Positions 20,205-28,254 of a stretch of DNA of 32,764 nucleotides are shown piece by piece. The position numbers and the translations under genes were made by a program. Position 1 is the first letter of the stretch. Each line of letters opens with the position of its first letter. The notes beneath the pieces are model-generated. The model worked only from the letters and a program-made list of their open reading frames with translations, made no database searches and was not told where the DNA came from. Origin of the DNA: Clostridia bacterium (GTDB lineage: Bacteria; Bacillota; Clostridia; JAQVDB01); NCBI GenBank assembly GCA_028698525.1, contig JAQVDB010000024.1, forward strand, positions 1 to 32,764, given 5' to 3'.

Positions 20205-21617
20205 CTATAGTTCCCATGCATCGCTCAAGGTCTCAATAGCATCAGAAATATCCTCTATAGGTATCCCCCCGTAGGCAAGTAAAATCAACGGCTTGCCCGT
20301 CTGTTGAGGTTTTATCATGTAATTCGATATAGGCGTTACCTTTACCCCTCTTTTTTCCGCTTGTGCTGCTAGTTGATCAGAATTTTTAGATGATTTAACC
20401 TCCAATAATAAGTGAAGTCCAGTGCGTTCCCCTATTATATTCACATTGTCACCCATTATTGTTTTTATAGCTTGAATCAAGATCTGATTCTTTTTGGCAT
20501 ATATTTTTCTAAGCCTGCGTATATGCTTTTCTAGCATTCCGTCTTCCATAAACAAAGCAAGAGCAAGTTGTTCCAGTTTGGATGAGCTCTGATTGTATTT
20601 TTCCTTGGATCTCATATATATCTCCAACATATCCTCTGGTAAAATCATATAGCTTATCCTTATTGATGGCAACATTATTTTGGAAAAAGAACCCATATAT
20701 ATAACATCTTTGCCTTTATTCATTCCCTGAAGCGAAGGGATAGGCCTCCCGTAATACATAAGTTCACTATCATAATCATCCTCTATTATCAATGCCTCTC
20801 TATCATAAGCCCATTTTAGAAGCTGAACACGCTTGTTAACAGGCATAATAGACCCTGTAGGAAACTGATGGGCAGGACTTACATATATCAGGTCTGCATC
20901 TAACTCGGAAAGCACTTTTGTTTCTATTCCGTCATTCTCCAACGGTATAGGTATGATATCAAAACCACCATCTTTAAAAATATATCTAGCCTTATTAAAA
21001 CTTGGGTCCTCAAAGGCTACTTTGCTATAGAAAGGCTTTACCAGCCCACACAACATATTGAGCAGACTCTGCACTCCGGCACCAATCACAATTTGTTCAG
21101 GAAAACACACTGCCCCTCTGAACTGAAGAACATATTTATTTATTTGCTTTCTCAACTCATATTCCCCTTGATATGATCCATACGTCAACAGACGTTTATC
21201 ATAAAAAGAAAGCGCTCTGTTGATATATCTTTTCCATAATTTGAAATCAAAGCTAGAGCTGTCCACATGTTCATCTACAAAATCATATCGTATATGACTA
21301 TCCAATTCATCTTCATCTGTTATAATTTTAGATATAGTATTTCTTTTATCATAATCCAACATATCATTATCTATTTTACTTACAAAATAACCCACATTAG
21401 GTTTACTAGTAATATAACCCTCTACCGATAACTGATGATATGTGGCTTCCACAGTAGTCCTGCTTATTTTCAAAAAACTAGATAACTTCCTGATAGAGGG
21501 CAATTTTGTTTCAGGCTCAATATGTCCTGAAATAATCTCCTGTTTTATATACCTGTATAATTGAACATATATAGGCACATGGGAATTACTATCTATATTT
21601 GGCATAAGCTCGATCAC
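20205..21617 (-). CDS. MocR/PdxR-type regulator (GntR HTH fused to aminotransferase domain)
   Basis: A 470-residue fusion. Residues 13-79 are a GntR-type winged helix (HVPIYVQLYRYIKQEIISG...LPSIRKLSSFLKISRTTVEATYHQL). Residues 110-470 are a fold-type I aminotransferase domain with SPAHQFPTGSIMP, EDDYDSELMY and the PLP-binding Lys313 in MGSFSKIMLPSIR. In this family PLP or its adducts act as effector; PdxR members control vitamin B6 synthesis or uptake, others control GABA or taurine genes. The gene is divergent from an ECF S component with a 15-bp tandem repeat between, which favours a B6 role. The start is GTG at 21617 with GAGGTG 8 bases upstream; an ATG at codon 5 is an alternative. Confidence 0.92.
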   Translation of the reverse strand: MIELMPNIDSNSHVPIYVQLYRYIKQEIISGHIEPETKLPSIRKLSSFLKISRTTVEATYHQLSVEGYITSKPNVGYFVSKIDNDMLDYDKRNTISKIITDEDELDSHIRYDFVDEHVDSSSFDFKLWKRYINRALSFYDKRLLTYGSYQGEYELRKQINKYVLQFRGAVCFPEQIVIGAGVQSLLNMLCGLVKPFYSKVAFEDPSFNKARYIFKDGGFDIIPIPLENDGIETKVLSELDADLIYVSPAHQFPTGSIMPVNKRVQLLKWAYDREALIIEDDYDSELMYYGRPIPSLQGMNKGKDVIYMGSFSKIMLPSIRISYMILPEDMLEIYMRSKEKYNQSSSKLEQLALALFMEDGMLEKHIRRLRKIYAKKNQILIQAIKTIMGDNVNIIGERTGLHLLLEVKSSKNSDQLAAQAEKRGVKVTPISNYMIKPQQTGKPLILLAYGGIPIEDISDAIETLSDAWEL

Positions 21618-21648
21618 AGCTATTTCACCTCACTGTCCCCTTCAAAAT

Positions 21649-21678
21649 TATCAAAACTGTCACTATCAATATGGTCAC
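21649..21678. promoter_or_regulatory. tandem 15-bp direct repeat, probable MocR-type operator
   Basis: TATCAAAACTGTCAC (21649-21663) is followed without a gap by TATCAATATGGTCAC (21664-21678), identical at 12 of 15 positions. Direct rather than inverted repeats are typical of MocR/PdxR binding sites. It lies in the divergent gap, just before an AT-rich stretch with TATTAT/TATATT (-10-like) and no good -35 toward the transporter, which suggests activation. Confidence 0.8.
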
Positions 21679-21760
21679 ACTTTTATTATATTATAAATTA
21701 GACCAACAAGTAAAATATTATCTATATATATTAAAACTTTTGAAAGGGGTTAAAGATAAA

Positions 21761-22522
21761 ATGAATGAATATAATTCAAAAAAACTAACCTTGAGCGGCC
21801 TGATGATAGCACTAGTATTTGTAGCTACTTTTAGTATACGCATCCCGGTTCCTTTTACACAAGGATATATACATGGAGGGGATAGCATGATTTTTGTATC
21901 GGCTATTCTTCTCGGTTGGAAATATGGAGCAGTAGCTGGAAGTTTAGGCTCTGCTATGGCTGACCTGGCAGGAGGTTATGCTGTATGGGCTCTTCCTACC
22001 TTGATAATCAAAGGAATAATGGGGGGAATAGCCGGATATCTGGCAAGAGGTAAAAAGAAAAATACTGTAACTGCAGCAACGATTGTTGCAGGTTTATGGT
22101 TTGTGTTCAGCTATGCCTTAAGAACAGTGATAAATAAAACTATTGCATCCAATCCTTCCGTACTGGTAGGTAAAGTAGATGGGGCTAACAGTGTAGAACA
22201 ATTGATAGATATGAGCCAAAAATTACAATCCCAGCTGCTTTGGATATCCATACTGATACCTATATTTATCATAATTCTCTCTATATTTCTACATAAAATT
22301 GACAAACAGCTTTTTTCGGCCAGCAAACTCCTAGGCATGACAGTATCCGGATTATGGATGGTATTCGCATACTATATGGCATCAGGTATATTGTTTGGTA
22401 ACTTCATAGTATCAATATTCAGCATCCCTTGGAATATAATCCAGTTTGTTTCAGGAGCTATAATAGGATATGTGATACTATTTGCACTGAGCAAAACCCC
22501 TATAGGTAAATATTTAAATTAA
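21761..22522 (+). CDS. ECF transporter S component, candidate vitamin B6 uptake
   Basis: A 253-residue integral membrane protein. The first helix (LTLSGLMIALVFVATFSIRIPVP) and the block IHGGDSMIFVSAILLGWKYGAVAGSLGSAMADLAGGYAVWALPTLIIKGIMGG are typical of the S components grouped with HmpT/PdxU2. Such proteins bind a vitamin and work with a shared EcfAA'T module not found in this window. S components are usually 170-200 residues; this one has an extra segment at about 125-194, and the helix VAGLWFVFSYALRTVI (109-124) resembles VSGLWMVFAYYMASGI (195-210). The ATG at 21761 is preferred over an upstream in-frame ATG because GAAAGGGG precedes it. Substrate inferred only from the neighbouring regulator. 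Confidence 0.85.
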   Translation: MNEYNSKKLTLSGLMIALVFVATFSIRIPVPFTQGYIHGGDSMIFVSAILLGWKYGAVAGSLGSAMADLAGGYAVWALPTLIIKGIMGGIAGYLARGKKKNTVTAATIVAGLWFVFSYALRTVINKTIASNPSVLVGKVDGANSVEQLIDMSQKLQSQLLWISILIPIFIIILSIFLHKIDKQLFSASKLLGMTVSGLWMVFAYYMASGILFGNFIVSIFSIPWNIIQFVSGAIIGYVILFALSKTPIGKYLN

Positions 22523-22581: not shown

Positions 22582-23583
22582 TCACAATTCATGTCTTGAA
22601 TCAACAAAAGCTTTGAAATTTATAGGAGGTGTGTTTTTAGGAATTTCACAACCTGCACTTAAAATATAACCTGTTCCCCCTATTCTTATACAGTTTTTTG
22701 CAAGTCCTTTAATTTCCTCTACATGCCCGTTTAATATTGCTACTGGGTCCACATTTCCCTTGATACAAATTTTGTTCTGTCTGGATAATTCCTTTGCAAA
22801 TTTTAAATCTACTTTAGAATCTATATTCAATATATCTATACCCAAATCCATGAGCTCTCTAAAGAAGTGCTGTGAGTCCCCACAAATATGGTATTTAACA
22901 ATCGCCCCAGCATCTTTTATTTGCTTTACCAGTCTTTTTGCGTATGGCAAAGCAAACTTTCTATACATATCCGAAGACACTAAGGTAGCAACAGCATCGC
23001 CTATCCCTATAATATCTGCACCTGCTTTTACCTGTGCCTTCCCAAATCTTATTCCCATCTCACAGGCAAACTCTAAAAGCTGCTCTACAAATTTCTCATC
23101 GTCATACATATCTATCATAAAATCATTTAAACCTCTCAAAATAGATGCGCTTTGAAAAGGTGCCTCTACCCAACCTTGGACAGGAATCTGGCCACCTACC
23201 TTTCTTTTAAATTCTCTCACAGCATTTATCTTATCTGTCATCCTTTCAGCATTGAGAGGGTCCGGTATATCTGCATTCAGAAAATCTCTTTTATTCCTAA
23301 ATGCAGCCTTTTTTTCAATAGGCAGGTCGTCTTCAGGATACTCAATAACTGCTCCACAGTCATGTGCCTCTCTATATGCATCTGAATCAGCTGTTACAAT
23401 GTCATATCCGAACTGTTCAACACAATCCAGCTGGGCCTTTACTAACTTTGTATAATCAGTGCAATAGGAATAATATGAAACTCCGCTTGTCTTGGCTGCA
23501 AAGGCCAATACAAAAGGACATACAGGTATTACATCTACATCTTTAAATTTAACGGCATTCATAACTCTCTCGTATGAATTCAT
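22582..23583 (-). CDS. URO-D/MtaA-like family protein (copy 2, His-x-Cys...Cys site)
   Basis: A 333-residue member of the uroporphyrinogen decarboxylase superfamily, closer to corrinoid methyltransferases than copy 1. It keeps the full zinc-thiolate set of MtaA-type enzymes: His232 and Cys234 in YHICGDSQHF, and Cys312 in LSAGCEIPKNTPP. NSYERVMNAVKFKDVDVIPVCP and GIGDAVATLVSSDMYRKFALPYAKRLV also fit. The family transfers methyl groups between cobalamin or corrinoid proteins and thiols such as coenzyme M; no corrinoid protein or activator gene lies nearby. The ATG at 23583 is chosen for the AGAGGGGG site before it; it overlaps the end of the ROK kinase gene by 35 bases. As the last gene of a sugar importer operon, its job is probably tied to that sugar, but the substrate is unknown. 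Confidence 0.85.
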   Translation of the reverse strand: MNSYERVMNAVKFKDVDVIPVCPFVLAFAAKTSGVSYYSYCTDYTKLVKAQLDCVEQFGYDIVTADSDAYREAHDCGAVIEYPEDDLPIEKKAAFRNKRDFLNADIPDPLNAERMTDKINAVREFKRKVGGQIPVQGWVEAPFQSASILRGLNDFMIDMYDDEKFVEQLLEFACEMGIRFGKAQVKAGADIIGIGDAVATLVSSDMYRKFALPYAKRLVKQIKDAGAIVKYHICGDSQHFFRELMDLGIDILNIDSKVDLKFAKELSRQNKICIKGNVDPVAILNGHVEEIKGLAKNCIRIGGTGYILSAGCEIPKNTPPINFKAFVDSRHEL

Positions 23584-24547
23584 TTTTTTCCCCCTCTTCT
23601 TTATTCTTTGAATAGCCATCAATTGCTAGCTTCAATGCACCTAAAAGACCTGACATATCCCCCATCTCTGCTTTAACCATTCTGGGTGGAAAAGGAACAG
23701 TCTGATGTATGTACTCATGTACAATTTCCTTTATGATACCAAAATTATCTGCTATACCTCCTCCTAAAATCAGAACTTCAGGATTCAATATGGTAGATAT
23801 GTTGGATAAAACCATGGCTAAATATTTCGCTTTTCTCTTTATAAACTCTATACATAATCTATCTCTTTGCTTATACCCCCAAAAAACAAGTTGGGTATCT
23901 ATCTTATCAATATTTCCTTCAACCTTTTGTATAAGAATAGTATCTTTATCCTCTTGCAGTAATCTTTTAAAATCCCTTCCTATCGCCATACCACTGAACA
24001 TGTTCTCAAAGGGCGGTATCCCTTTTTCCCATCGATCTAAATCATCAATATCAGTCAGCATATAACCTATTTCTCCTGCAGCATTATTATTTCCCAGGTA
24101 AACACGTTCATCTATTATCACCGCTATACTGGACCCTGTCCCTAGATTTACATAAACACCATTTCTGACAGCCTTGCCCGCACCCTTCCAAACCTCGCCT
24201 AAAGCTGCACATTTTACATCATTCATTATAAAAGTAGGTGCATTATACTCATCGCTAAAGTGTTGCTTTATCATATCTACGCCTAGGTTTTTTATGTTAT
24301 CACAAAGATAAACCTTTTGATCATAATATACCCCTGGAATACCCATCCCTATAGCTCTGAATGAATGTTGACTTAAGCCAGTCATCATTTTTTCTATTGT
24401 ACTTATTATATCTTTCTGCAGGTCAACGCTGTCCAATTCAACCCTAGTAGGTGTGGTAATAGATTTTATTGTTACCCCCTGTTGTGTCCCTATCAACACC
24501 CTAGTGTTTGTGCCTCCCAAGTCAACAGCTATGTATAGATCTCCCAT
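23549..24547 (-). CDS. ROK-family sugar kinase lacking the zinc motif
   Basis: A 332-residue ROK-fold kinase, likely phosphorylating the imported sugar with ATP. ATP-site AVDLGGTNTRVLIG is at residues 7-20, the catalytic base is Asp110 in FIMNDVKCAALGE, phosphate-binding NLGTGSS is at 134-140, and NNAAGEIGYM is at 154-163. Typical glucokinases have a CxCGxxGCxE zinc motif and a His after GEIG; here Tyr replaces the His and no such Cys cluster exists. The gene follows the binding protein gene by 125 bases including a hairpin. Glucokinase, allokinase or N-acetylmannosamine kinase are all possible; the sugar cannot be named. Confidence 0.87.
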   Translation of the reverse strand: MGDLYIAVDLGGTNTRVLIGTQQGVTIKSITTPTRVELDSVDLQKDIISTIEKMMTGLSQHSFRAIGMGIPGVYYDQKVYLCDNIKNLGVDMIKQHFSDEYNAPTFIMNDVKCAALGEVWKGAGKAVRNGVYVNLGTGSSIAVIIDERVYLGNNNAAGEIGYMLTDIDDLDRWEKGIPPFENMFSGMAIGRDFKRLLQEDKDTILIQKVEGNIDKIDTQLVFWGYKQRDRLCIEFIKRKAKYLAMVLSNISTILNPEVLILGGGIADNFGIIKEIVHEYIHQTVPFPPRMVKAEMGDMSGLLGALKLAIDGYSKNKEEGEKNEFIRESYECR

Positions 24548-24632
24548 AATATATCACTTCCTGTCTTATCATTTTAAAAGCAACACCAAGTATACACGAA
24601 CCTGATATATGTGTTGATACTGCTCCATAACA

Positions 24633-24659
24633 AAGGGGATAACACAGTGTTATCCCCTT
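24633..24659 (-). terminator. hairpin after the binding protein gene
   Basis: Perfect 13-bp arms (AAGGGGATAACAC and complement) around one central base, 13 bases past the binding protein stop. The minus-strand flank is TTTGTTATGG, without a proper U-run, so it is more likely a stabilising or partial-termination hairpin than a full terminator. Confidence 0.65.
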
Positions 24660-24672
24660 ACCGGAGTTTATT

Positions 24673-25704
24673 TTAATCCCAAGGCTTTTTGGTAGACCTT
24701 ACTTCTTCGTAGTTTTCATGGGTTACAATTTCAACACCTGTATCTACAAATTCTTCTACTTCTTCACCGTTTATCAATTTAAATAGACTTTCAACGCTCT
24801 TGTAGCCCATCTGATAAAAATCCTGTCCAACCGCTACATCCACCATATCCTCATCAAAATACTGGAGCATTGGATAGAATGCATCCATTGTAACTATGAC
24901 CTTTTCTTCTGTTTTCCACCCTTTCAGGTTTCCTAATGATTCTGGAGGTGCAAAGAATGGCCATCCACCTACAAAGAACCAAGCATCAAGTTCATCATCT
25001 GAAGCAGTATACTGCTCTACCTGTTCAACTGCCTTATTCAAGTCATCCTCACAAGCTTGGGTGGTCACTATCTCAAGGTCGCTTCCTTCTATAGCGTCTT
25101 TAAATCCTTCCATACGGGCTTCTAGGTCGAATGCACCTAATATTCCGGTAAGCTGTGCTACCCTTCCTTTTCCGCCTGTCAACTCCACCATCTTTTCTCC
25201 ACAAATTTTACCTGCTTCATAGTTTTGTGTCCCTGCATAAAAGTATCTGCCACTATCCGGAGAGTCAGCATCAAATGTACTAACCTTTATGCCAGCATCT
25301 ATAGCTTGTTTTAAAACATCTGTAAGTGCATCTGGATGGTTACAGCTTATAGCTATCCCATCTACCTTTTTTTCTATCAATCCTTCCACTACTTCCACCT
25401 GGCTAGGTGCATCGGCTTTCACCGGAGCAACCCATTCTAACATTATCCCTAAGTCTTCTGCCGCTGCCTCTGCCCCGTCCTTCGCATCTAGGAAAACTGG
25501 GTTGCCCAGTTGTTGAGGTACAACAGCGATCACTATGTCCTTACTGCCCCCCCCTTCAGATGAGCTATCATCTTTCTGGCTATCATCTGTTTTGTCTTCA
25601 GCTTCAGTGCTGCTTTCCCCTCCATCTACCTGATCATTACCACAAGCAGCAAATGTCAATACAAGCATACAAATCAGCAAAATTGACACTATCTTTTTCA
25701 ACAT
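24673..25704 (-). CDS. sugar ABC transporter substrate-binding lipoprotein, RbsB type
   Basis: A 343-residue lipoprotein with lipobox TFAAC (Cys21) and an Asp/Ser/Gly-rich linker to about residue 55. The mature part is a periplasmic-binding-protein type 4 domain: DIVIAVVPQQLGNPVFLDAKDGAEAAAEDLG, then VEVVEGLIEKKVDGIAIS, STFDADSPDSGRYFYAGTQNYEAGKICGEKM and MVDVAVGQDFYQMGYKSVESL. It captures a sugar outside the membrane for the RbsC/RbsA-type partners encoded upstream. The ribosome site AAGGAGG is 8 bases before the ATG and follows a 22-base perfect palindrome. Ligand unknown; it is not obviously ribose. Confidence 0.92.
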   Translation of the reverse strand: MLKKIVSILLICMLVLTFAACGNDQVDGGESSTEAEDKTDDSQKDDSSSEGGGSKDIVIAVVPQQLGNPVFLDAKDGAEAAAEDLGIMLEWVAPVKADAPSQVEVVEGLIEKKVDGIAISCNHPDALTDVLKQAIDAGIKVSTFDADSPDSGRYFYAGTQNYEAGKICGEKMVELTGGKGRVAQLTGILGAFDLEARMEGFKDAIEGSDLEIVTTQACEDDLNKAVEQVEQYTASDDELDAWFFVGGWPFFAPPESLGNLKGWKTEEKVIVTMDAFYPMLQYFDEDMVDVAVGQDFYQMGYKSVESLFKLINGEEVEEFVDTGVEIVTHENYEEVRSTKKPWD

Positions 25705-25718
25705 GATAAAACCTCCTT

Positions 25719-25740
25719 AATTTTTTGTTAACAAAAAATT
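25719..25740. repeat. 22-bp perfect palindrome before the binding protein gene
   Basis: A fully self-complementary stretch with core TTTTTTGTTAACAAAAAA, ending at the AAGGAGG site of the binding protein gene. It could be an operator or an mRNA hairpin that affects translation or stability. Confidence 0.75.
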
Positions 25741-25759
25741 AACTCTTTCCTCCTTTCCT

Positions 25760-26746
25760 TTAATTGCTTCTATTTTTTCTCAGCTGATCAGCAGATACTG
25801 CAACAATAATCACTGTCCCTATAACTACCTGCTGCCAATATGCTGAGACATTGAGCAACACGAGTGCATTTCTTAAGACTCCCATTATAGCAGCACCGAA
25901 TATAGTACCGGGAACAGATGCAAAACCGCCTGACAAGCTAGCCCCTCCTATTACAGTAGCTGCTACCGCATCCAACTCATATCCTATACCTGCCGTAGGC
26001 TGCCCAAGACCAAGCCTTGATGCAGTAATAATCCCTGCAAAGGCCGCTAGTGCCCCACATATAGAATAAACAAATAATAGCAGACGCTCTACATTTATAC
26101 CGGATAGTCTTGCTGCTTCCATATTGCCTCCAATAGCAAATATACGTCTTCCTGTAACTGTCTTATTGAGAAATATGTGTACAAGTATTGCTACTCCTAT
26201 CATTATTATCACCGGCACAGGGACAGGACCTACATGTCCTTGACCAAGTTTTAAAAAAGCTTTGGGCAAGTTTGTGATAGGATAACCTCGGGTGAATACG
26301 TAGCAAAGACCTCTGGCTATACTCAATGACCCTAGTGTAGCTATAAACGGAGGAAGTTTTATCTTTGTAACCAAAAAACCATTAAATAACCCAAATATAA
26401 TACCAATCAATATACCTAAAAGTACACCACCCAAAATACCTATACCCCACCTGGCCATACCCAAAGTTGCTATTACACCTGCAAAACCAAATATTGAACC
26501 GATTGAAAGGTCTATACCCGCCGTTATGATAACTAGTGATTCTCCTAATGCCAGTATAGCTATATATGAAAAAGCCCTTGATACCGAAAAAAGATTGTCA
26601 AAAGTTAAAAATTTATCAGATGCTAATGTCATACCTATGCACATTATGATCAATATAATCAGAATGTTTAAAGAAGGCGACTTTCTGATCTTATTAAAGA
26701 CATTGTTTGAATTGTTTATCCTTTGTTTCTTTAGTTGTACATCCAT
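25760..26746 (-). CDS. sugar ABC transporter permease, RbsC type (CUT2)
   Basis: A hydrophobic protein of about 328 residues with eight or more transmembrane segments. Family marks include ALGESLVIITAGIDLSIGSIFGFAGVIA (about 70-97), GLFNGFLVTKIKLPPFIATLGSLSIARG, GRRIFAIGGNMEAARLSGINV and the C-terminal LDAVAATVIGGASLSGGFASVPGTIFGAAIMGVLRN. It forms the homodimeric channel of a ribose-type importer. The ATG at 26746 is chosen because GGGGAGG lies 9 bases upstream; an ATG three codons earlier sits directly on that site. It follows the ATPase gene by 17 bases. Confidence 0.94.
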   Translation of the reverse strand: MDVQLKKQRINNSNNVFNKIRKSPSLNILIILIIMCIGMTLASDKFLTFDNLFSVSRAFSYIAILALGESLVIITAGIDLSIGSIFGFAGVIATLGMARWGIGILGGVLLGILIGIIFGLFNGFLVTKIKLPPFIATLGSLSIARGLCYVFTRGYPITNLPKAFLKLGQGHVGPVPVPVIIMIGVAILVHIFLNKTVTGRRIFAIGGNMEAARLSGINVERLLLFVYSICGALAAFAGIITASRLGLGQPTAGIGYELDAVAATVIGGASLSGGFASVPGTIFGAAIMGVLRNALVLLNVSAYWQQVVIGTVIIVAVSADQLRKNRSN

Positions 26747-26763
26747 GATATACATCCTCCCCT

Positions 26764-28254
26764 TTATTGATTTTGAGCTATTGCCATCTGCATTATTTTG
26801 TTTTGACTAGCCTCTTGTCTGCTCAATTCACCTTTTTTACATCCCTCATGCATCACCATTATCCTGTCACTCATGCCTAAAATTTCAGGCATCTCTGATG
26901 ATATCATTATTATTGCAACCCCTGTTTTGGCCAACTTTGACATCAGTCTGTGTATCTCTTTCTTTGCACCTACATCTATGCCCCTAGTTGGTTCATCTAA
27001 TATGAGAATTTCAGGATTTGTAGCAAGCCATTTTGAGATAACTACCTTTTGTTGATTGCCCCCGCTTAAATTCATCGCCTTTTGTTCTATGCTAGGTGTC
27101 TTTATATCCAATTTATCTACATAATCTTCTGCGATCTTTCCCTCTGCATCTTGATCTATAAACTTATGTCTGCTTATACTTTCAAGATATGGTAAAGTTA
27201 TATTTTCCTTCACAGTCATACCCAATATCAATCCTTGCCCTTTTCTATCTTCCGGCACAAATCCCATCCCGTGTCTTATTGCATCTTCAGCAGAATTAAT
27301 ATTTATTTTTTCACCCCTTACATATATCTCTCCTGCTTCTTTTTTATCCACCCCAAATATAGCTCTCATCACTTCAGTACGACCCGCTCCTACCAATCCA
27401 GCAAATCCTAATATCTCGCCTTTTCTCAGCTTAAAATTTATGTCCTTTAAAAATCCTTTTGTGCTTAAATGTTTGACTTCCAGTACTACATCACCTATGT
27501 TAGTCTCTTCTTTTTCAAACATATTGTTTATCTCTCTGCCTACCATAAGACCTACAACATTTTTCTCGCTTATATCTTGGCCTATTAAGTTACCTACCAT
27601 CTGTCCGTCCCTCATCACCGTAACCCTATCGCATATTTGAAATATCTCATTTAACCTATGTGATATAAACACCACTCCAACACCTTCAGATTTGAGCTTC
27701 AATATTATATCTAATAATATTTTGGTCTCACTCTCTGTTAATGATGATGTAGGCTCATCCATAACTATTATCTTAGAATCAAAAGACAAGGCCCTAGCAA
27801 CTTCCACCATCTGCCTCTGTCCTATTGATAGATCTTGTAAGAGAGTAGTTGTGTCTACATCTAAACCGACCATATCAAGTAATTTTCTGGCTTCTGCATG
27901 CATGGCAGTTTTATCCACAAATATTCCGTTGCGTTTTTCTTTGCCTATAAAAATATTCTCTGCAATATCAAGGTTCAATAACACATTTAATTCCTGGTGT
28001 ATTATGCTTATCCCTAGTTTTTGTGCGTCTAATGGCTTTTGAATATCCACTTTTTTGCCGTTTACGAGTATTTCTCCTTGATCCTTTTTATATACACCCG
28101 TAAGTATCTTCATAAGAGTAGATTTGCCTGCACCATTTTCTCCTACCAAGCCCAGAACCTCTCCCTGATTTATATATATATCAACATTATCCAATGCTAA
28201 TACTCCAGGAAATTGCTTGGTCACACCTTTCATCTGAAGATATGAAACTTCCAT
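26764..28254 (-). CDS. sugar ABC transporter ATPase with two cassettes, RbsA type
   Basis: A 496-residue tandem ATPase driving the CUT2 importer. The first cassette has Walker A GENGAGKST (38-46), signature LSIGQRQMVEVARAL and Walker B IIVMDEPTSSLTESE. The second has the degenerate Walker A GLVGAGRTE normal for this family, signature LSGGNQQKVVISKWL and ILILDEPTRGIDVGAK. It shows the RbsA/MglA pattern; a lone ATPase of other importers would be half this length. GGAGG lies upstream of the ATG at 28254. It is the first transporter gene after the ROK repressor. Confidence 0.95.
   Translation of the reverse strand: MEVSYLQMKGVTKQFPGVLALDNVDIYINQGEVLGLVGENGAGKSTLMKILTGVYKKDQGEILVNGKKVDIQKPLDAQKLGISIIHQELNVLLNLDIAENIFIGKEKRNGIFVDKTAMHAEARKLLDMVGLDVDTTTLLQDLSIGQRQMVEVARALSFDSKIIVMDEPTSSLTESETKILLDIILKLKSEGVGVVFISHRLNEIFQICDRVTVMRDGQMVGNLIGQDISEKNVVGLMVGREINNMFEKEETNIGDVVLEVKHLSTKGFLKDINFKLRKGEILGFAGLVGAGRTEVMRAIFGVDKKEAGEIYVRGEKININSAEDAIRHGMGFVPEDRKGQGLILGMTVKENITLPYLESISRHKFIDQDAEGKIAEDYVDKLDIKTPSIEQKAMNLSGGNQQKVVISKWLATNPEILILDEPTRGIDVGAKKEIHRLMSKLAKTGVAIIMISSEMPEILGMSDRIMVMHEGCKKGELSRQEASQNKIMQMAIAQNQ

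Follow-up and report, generated by a model that had tools for sequence, protein, structure and literature searches.

A predicted PdxR operator between a MocR-type regulator gene and a gene for an ECF S component of the PdxU/HmpT family in a Clostridia bacterium

In a Clostridia bacterium (assembly GCA_028698525.1, contig JAQVDB010000024.1), a stretch of 32,764 nucleotides, referred to here as the window, carries two divergent genes separated by an intergenic gap of 143 bp, one on the minus strand (21617-20205) and one on the plus strand (21761-22522). Which signal does the gap hold, and what does it control? A preliminary description identified the flanking genes as a MocR-type regulator and an ECF S component, which Pfam and NCBIfam bear out, and proposed that a gapless 15-bp tandem, TATCA-N5-GTCAC twice, serves as the regulator's site.

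The regulator and its predicted operator

The minus-strand gene (20205-21617) encodes a regulator of 470 aa with a GTG start, preceded at a distance of 8 nt by the Shine-Dalgarno sequence GAGGTG. Pfam finds a GntR domain (57 bits, the HTH, residues 17-79) and an Aminotran_1_2 domain (68 bits), and the lysine that forms the Schiff base with PLP is kept as K313 in GSFSK. The NCBIfam equivalog PLP_TF_PdxR scores 504 bits against a cut-off of 320, placing this MocR-type protein in the PdxR subfamily, while the GabR (410 versus 600), MocR, EhuR and YczR models all score it below their cut-offs. Identities as a GABA, rhizopine or ectoine regulator, each below the curated cut-off, were dropped. Like a PdxR, it stands divergent from a gene of predicted B6 uptake with an operator of direct and inverted repeats between the two. 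Judged by its sequence, we assign the regulator to PdxR with high confidence.

Upstream regions of PdxR-like genes were taken from 108 other loci, and a 46-column ungapped matrix trained without the window found 68 sites. The window aligns without gaps with the upstream sequences of 60 further PdxR genes, and what they share is a pair of direct CTG-type boxes at a distance of 24 bp together with one inverted box; the matrix reads CTG[AT]CCCC, 24 bp on CTGNCNC, then TTTTAATA and then the inverted box GTCAG. Box 1 in the window is CTGTCCCC (21633-21640, plus strand; alignment columns 2-9, CTG nearly invariant), box 2 is its direct repeat CTGTCAC at 24 bp (21657-21663, plus strand; columns 26-32, TG nearly invariant), and box 3 is inverted, reading GTGACCA on the minus strand (21672-21678; columns 41-47, CA nearly invariant).

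The matrix fits the window at 21631-21676 with 42.6 bits, compared with -0.5 for the second-best position in the gap and 16.4 for the best of 100 whole-window shuffles; over both strands of the whole window the next scores are 12.9, at the same site on the other strand, and 10.6. The pattern of conserved columns, allowing at most 3 mismatches, matches the bacterium's own genome at this site only, here with 0 mismatches, so that at this threshold no second operator was found elsewhere in it. Two loci with a PdxR and S component that lay outside the training set (L137 and L142) score 40.9 and 43.7 bits, and none of nine loci whose S component has no PdxR beside it (L143-L151) exceeds 6.1. The same operator lies before pdxS in Shouchella xiaoxiensis (L117, 39.9 bits) and precedes pdxS and kinase genes in other loci, the related genomes being non-independent samples of its conservation. 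We conclude with high confidence that the gap holds a predicted PdxR operator, in line with the earlier expectation of a direct repeat for MocR/PdxR. As a separate observation, locus L128 has, near position 2300 on the minus strand, part of an operator similar to boxes 2 and 3 (14.9 bits), upstream of a long S component with no adjacent PdxR.

The 15-bp tandem is present exactly as it had been reported. An exact string search places TATCAAAACTGTCACTATCAATATGGTCAC at 21649-21678 (plus strand), which is letter for letter TATCAAAACTGTCAC-TATCAATATGGTCAC, and this stretch covers the spacer, box 2, the inter-box linker and box 3 of the strongly conserved three-box operator (21633-21678). In the alignment the first TATCA occupies columns 18-22, which belong to the spacer and are little conserved; the first GTCAC is the end of box 2 in forward orientation and the second GTCAC is the inverted box 3. 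The two halves are identical at 12 of 15 positions, whereas the 60 PdxR operators aligned from elsewhere give a mean of 5.9 and a maximum of 10 of 15, and none of them keeps the tandem. No window shuffle contained the 30-base tandem pattern at up to 3 mismatches, a pattern fitted here to itself; when the 143-bp gap was shuffled, 0.5% of the shuffles had a gapless tandem of period 15 with 12/15 or more identical positions, and 14% had some tandem of period 10-30 with at least 80% identity. Elsewhere in the genome TATCA-N5-GTCAC has 3 single-copy matches, about equal to the 2 of a control pattern. As tandems of some period are common among shuffles and this one is absent from 60 relatives, it is most likely a by-product of chance, and as an operator it was rejected for its lack of conservation among them. 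Conservation beside orthologous gene pairs thus holds for the operator and fails for the tandem, and the unit to be read in its place consists of boxes 1 and 2, direct at 24 bp, with the inverted box 3.

Promoter geometry and the proposed switch

The -10 element of the transporter gene is TATATT (21687-21692, plus strand; TATAAT in relatives), lying in columns 56-61 that are conserved in 60 loci. At a spacing of 17 bp the -35 position would be 21664-21669, between boxes 2 and 3, where TTGACA is absent; the operator lies over this position, which explains why the preliminary description found no good -35. Relative to an inferred +1 at about 21699, box 1 extends from -66 to -59, box 2 from -42 to -36 and box 3 from -27 to -21. 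On the other strand the GAGGTG of pdxR (21626-21631, minus strand), its probable ribosome-binding site as judged from the sequence and from the richness in C/T of the corresponding columns in relatives, abuts box 1. A weak candidate promoter for pdxR, TTTACT-N18-TATAAT (21685-21714, minus strand), would start transcription at box 3; the count of such candidates is not above that of shuffles and conservation did not settle the matter. The leader before the ATG of the transporter is about 60 nt long. Rfam yielded no family that reaches its gathering threshold (best score 17.7 bits versus 42), nor was a terminator-like site found, and a riboswitch or attenuator was dropped on these grounds.

Very likely, in our view, the gap serves as operator and promoter of a PdxR divergon governing B6 uptake, in which PdxR activates the transporter gene when PLP is low. 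When PLP is scarce, PLP-free PdxR would occupy boxes 1 and 2, the direct pair (about -66 to -36), beside a promoter with a -10 and without a proper -35, and would activate the S component gene; its product, paired with a shared ECF module, would take up a B6 vitamer. With PLP in ample supply, PdxR-PLP would prefer the inverted pair of boxes 2 and 3 (-42 to -21), covering the -35, and uptake would fall. As the operator abuts the ribosome-binding site of pdxR, PdxR would in addition repress its own gene. Activation, autorepression and the PLP switch are inferred from studied PdxRs, and the assignment of boxes 1 and 2 to activation and of boxes 2 and 3 to shut-off is our reading of the site's anatomy by analogy. 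The preliminary description had taken the poor -35 to suggest an activator; an operator over the -35 position fits an activator, and the direction of control would follow that of the studied proteins.

The scheme as such is already known from PdxR-pdxKU of streptococci and PdxR of Bacillus clausii. In Streptococcus pyogenes and S. mutans PdxR activates pdxKU in the absence of B6 and represses itself (PMC11619246). Common to the streptococcal system and the window are a PdxR and B6 salvage genes, among them one for a PF07155-type transporter (PMC11619246), yet in the streptococci pdxK is part of the operon whereas the S component of the window stands alone, and the pdxKU site is described as an inverted repeat (PMC11619246) whereas the window has the full three boxes. 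The accessible text of Suvorova and Rodionov 2016 (PMC5320631) gives PLP the role of an anti-activator: PLP-free PdxR activates and has a preference for direct repeats, whereas PdxR-PLP prefers inverted ones. In the same text the direct-direct-inverted arrangement is the commonest MocR motif, and PdxR-pdxST of Bacillus (Shouchella) clausii has, like the window, direct and inverted boxes between divergent genes; a member of this genus (L117) has a layout identical to that of the window. The target in B. clausii is biosynthesis, pdxST, and in the window predicted uptake. The accessible part of that article already counts pdxU among PdxR targets and contains no description of the window's individual site and genome.

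Three other readings of the control region have to be weighed against PdxR acting on the three-box operator. Were the gapless tandem itself the operator, two regulator subunits would bind head to tail at a spacing of 15 bp. The copies are in the right place, their 12/15 identity is rare for that period, and yet relatives lack the tandem, its first TATCA lies in variable spacer columns, 14% of shuffles produce a tandem at some period from 10 to 30, and at 15 bp, or 1.4 turns, the copies would face different sides of the helix; we regard this reading as very unlikely. A regulator that answers GABA, taurine or a similar amine, with an operator merely resembling that of PdxR, would agree with an architecture common to MocR regulators and with the sub-threshold match to GabR. 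It has to contend with a PdxR cut-off that is passed, an operator layout identical to that of pdxS-linked operators and neighbours among which, as far as examined, there is no GABA or taurine gene, and its probability is accordingly very low. That the leader RNA rather than PdxR exerts the control, as a riboswitch or attenuator, might be considered for a leader of this length, and leader-level control is suspected for pdxKU of group A streptococcus (PMC11619246), but the Rfam and terminator searches speak against it and we hold it to be extremely unlikely.

A variant S component in a probable B6 auxotroph

The plus-strand gene (21761-22522) encodes an ECF S component of 253 aa in the PdxU/HmpT family PF07155 (Pfam, 125 bits), a family that includes PdxU and PdxU2/HmpT (PMC9997740). 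Its core matches HmpT/PdxU2 of Lactobacillus brevis (4hzu chain S) in sequence (E 1.7e-10), and the same chain is its top Foldseek match (4hzu_S, TMt 0.81), in agreement with the earlier placement among families of known B6 transporters. In the alignment five of the eight HmpT pocket residues are identical (W76, Y120, S136, N140, Q143), and the other three differ (E41 to D, H84 to K, Q87 to M).

The typical S component has six helices and about 170-190 residues, whereas the protein of the window has two added membrane-length helices and is thus a variant rather than a typical PdxU/HmpT member. Relatives of 170-190 aa lack an insert that spans about residues 97-187 and makes the protein some 85 residues longer than HmpT of L. 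brevis. In an AlphaFold2 model (pLDDT 92, pTM 0.87) the insert forms two long helices (100-130 and 145-180) that sit between the usual fourth and fifth helices, and no solved S component of such length was found among the top Foldseek matches. This long form was counted in 20 of 391 genomes of the class; loci L123-L142, L051 and L052 have it. We note a resemblance between the helix TIVAGLWFVFSYAL of the insert and TVSGLWMVFAYYM in the helix that follows, with a local score of 45 that about 0.7% of shuffles reach.

Neither pdxS (PF01680) nor pdxJ (PF03740) was found in the genome, an assembly that is 97% complete, so that the absence of pdxS is not certain. Both known de novo routes to B6 thus appear to be absent, and since both genes are missing, B6 uptake is probably essential for this bacterium, a probable B6 auxotroph. 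All 10 tested genomes of the class with a PdxR/S component pair lack pdxS, which at the family cut-off is missing in 86 of 128 genomes of the class and present in 42 of 128. The genome contains EcfT (CbiQ). Its sole strong match to the Phos_pyr_kin family carries the annotation ThiD (TIGR00097, 366 bits) and stays below the cut-off of the B6 kinase model PRK12412 (243 versus 385), and as the only strong kinase looks like ThiD, the salvage phosphorylation after B6 import is not secured. In some bacteria enzymes of the ThiD type can take on this phosphorylation. The accessible text of PMC5320631 names kinases of the ThiD family in salvage.

From the family and the gene neighbourhood, a B6 vitamer is well supported as the predicted substrate. 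The nearest relatives of the S component (L123 and L124, 47% identical) lie behind a pyridoxamine kinase gene (PRK07105, 415 bits for L123), and in L024 and L092 kinase and S component stand together beside PdxR. HmpT was first named for hydroxymethylpyrimidine (PMC4860826), and a transporter importing this thiamin precursor for phosphorylation by the genome's own ThiD, with PdxR control incidental, would agree with that name and with the ThiD-like kinase. Against this, the ligand of HmpT identified by mass spectrometry is pyridoxamine (PMC4860826), a PdxR operator lies ahead of the gene, pdxK accompanies its nearest relatives, and pdxS and pdxJ are absent from the genome, which together make hydroxymethylpyrimidine an unlikely substrate and favour a B6 vitamer.

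Beyond the transporter gene, the minus strand of the window (22582-28254) encodes an MtaA/CmuA-like URO-D methyltransferase, a ROK-family kinase and an apparent sugar ABC transporter, a cluster that adjoins the B6 locus and is apparently unrelated to it.

Lysine-less sister regulators and family variation

In a tree of PdxRs the window's regulator falls into a clade of 21 rows (support 100) that contains transporter-, kinase- and other-linked PdxRs, and in a subclade of 12 rows within it Ser or Thr replaces the PLP lysine. Some lysine-less PdxRs adjoin the same long S component and the same operator, whereas the regulator of the window keeps K313. Replacement by Ser or Thr is found in nine loci with S component neighbours (L002, L004, L006, L008, L051, L080, L082, L137 and L142) and in L064, L075, L087 and L089, and several lysine-less loci have an intact three-box operator. 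The raw counts of lysine loss are 10 of 16 S component-linked and 3 of 26 pdxS-linked regulators, mostly from one clade. As most of the replacements lie in one subclade, we make no statistical claim that lysine loss is tied to transporter linkage, and a test on independent pairs had no power.

At L064:1950-2753, L075:1922-2854 and L089:1952-2761, a lysine-less PdxR-like regulator stands divergent from a gene whose protein, read by eye, resembles 3-dehydroquinate dehydratase (aroD) and not the product of a B6 gene, and with three members in this position at least part of the lysine-less subclade may have changed its job. Tentatively, and with rather less than even confidence, we suggest a salvage-type PdxR clade found mainly with transporters or kinases, an eight-helix S component variant, and lysine-less sisters that sense B6 without covalent PLP or respond to another ligand. 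If so, these sisters would need a way of sensing B6 without a covalent bond to PLP, or another ligand.

The characterised bacterial B6 importers belong to three families, and few importers have been verified (PMC9997740). Our analysis assigns a predicted regulatory site and a transporter to a probable B6 auxotroph; as the operator, it replaces the 15-bp tandem by a site of three boxes whose geometry relative to the promoter is defined. How these families vary can be probed in specific ways through the S component with eight helices and the sister regulators that lack the lysine.
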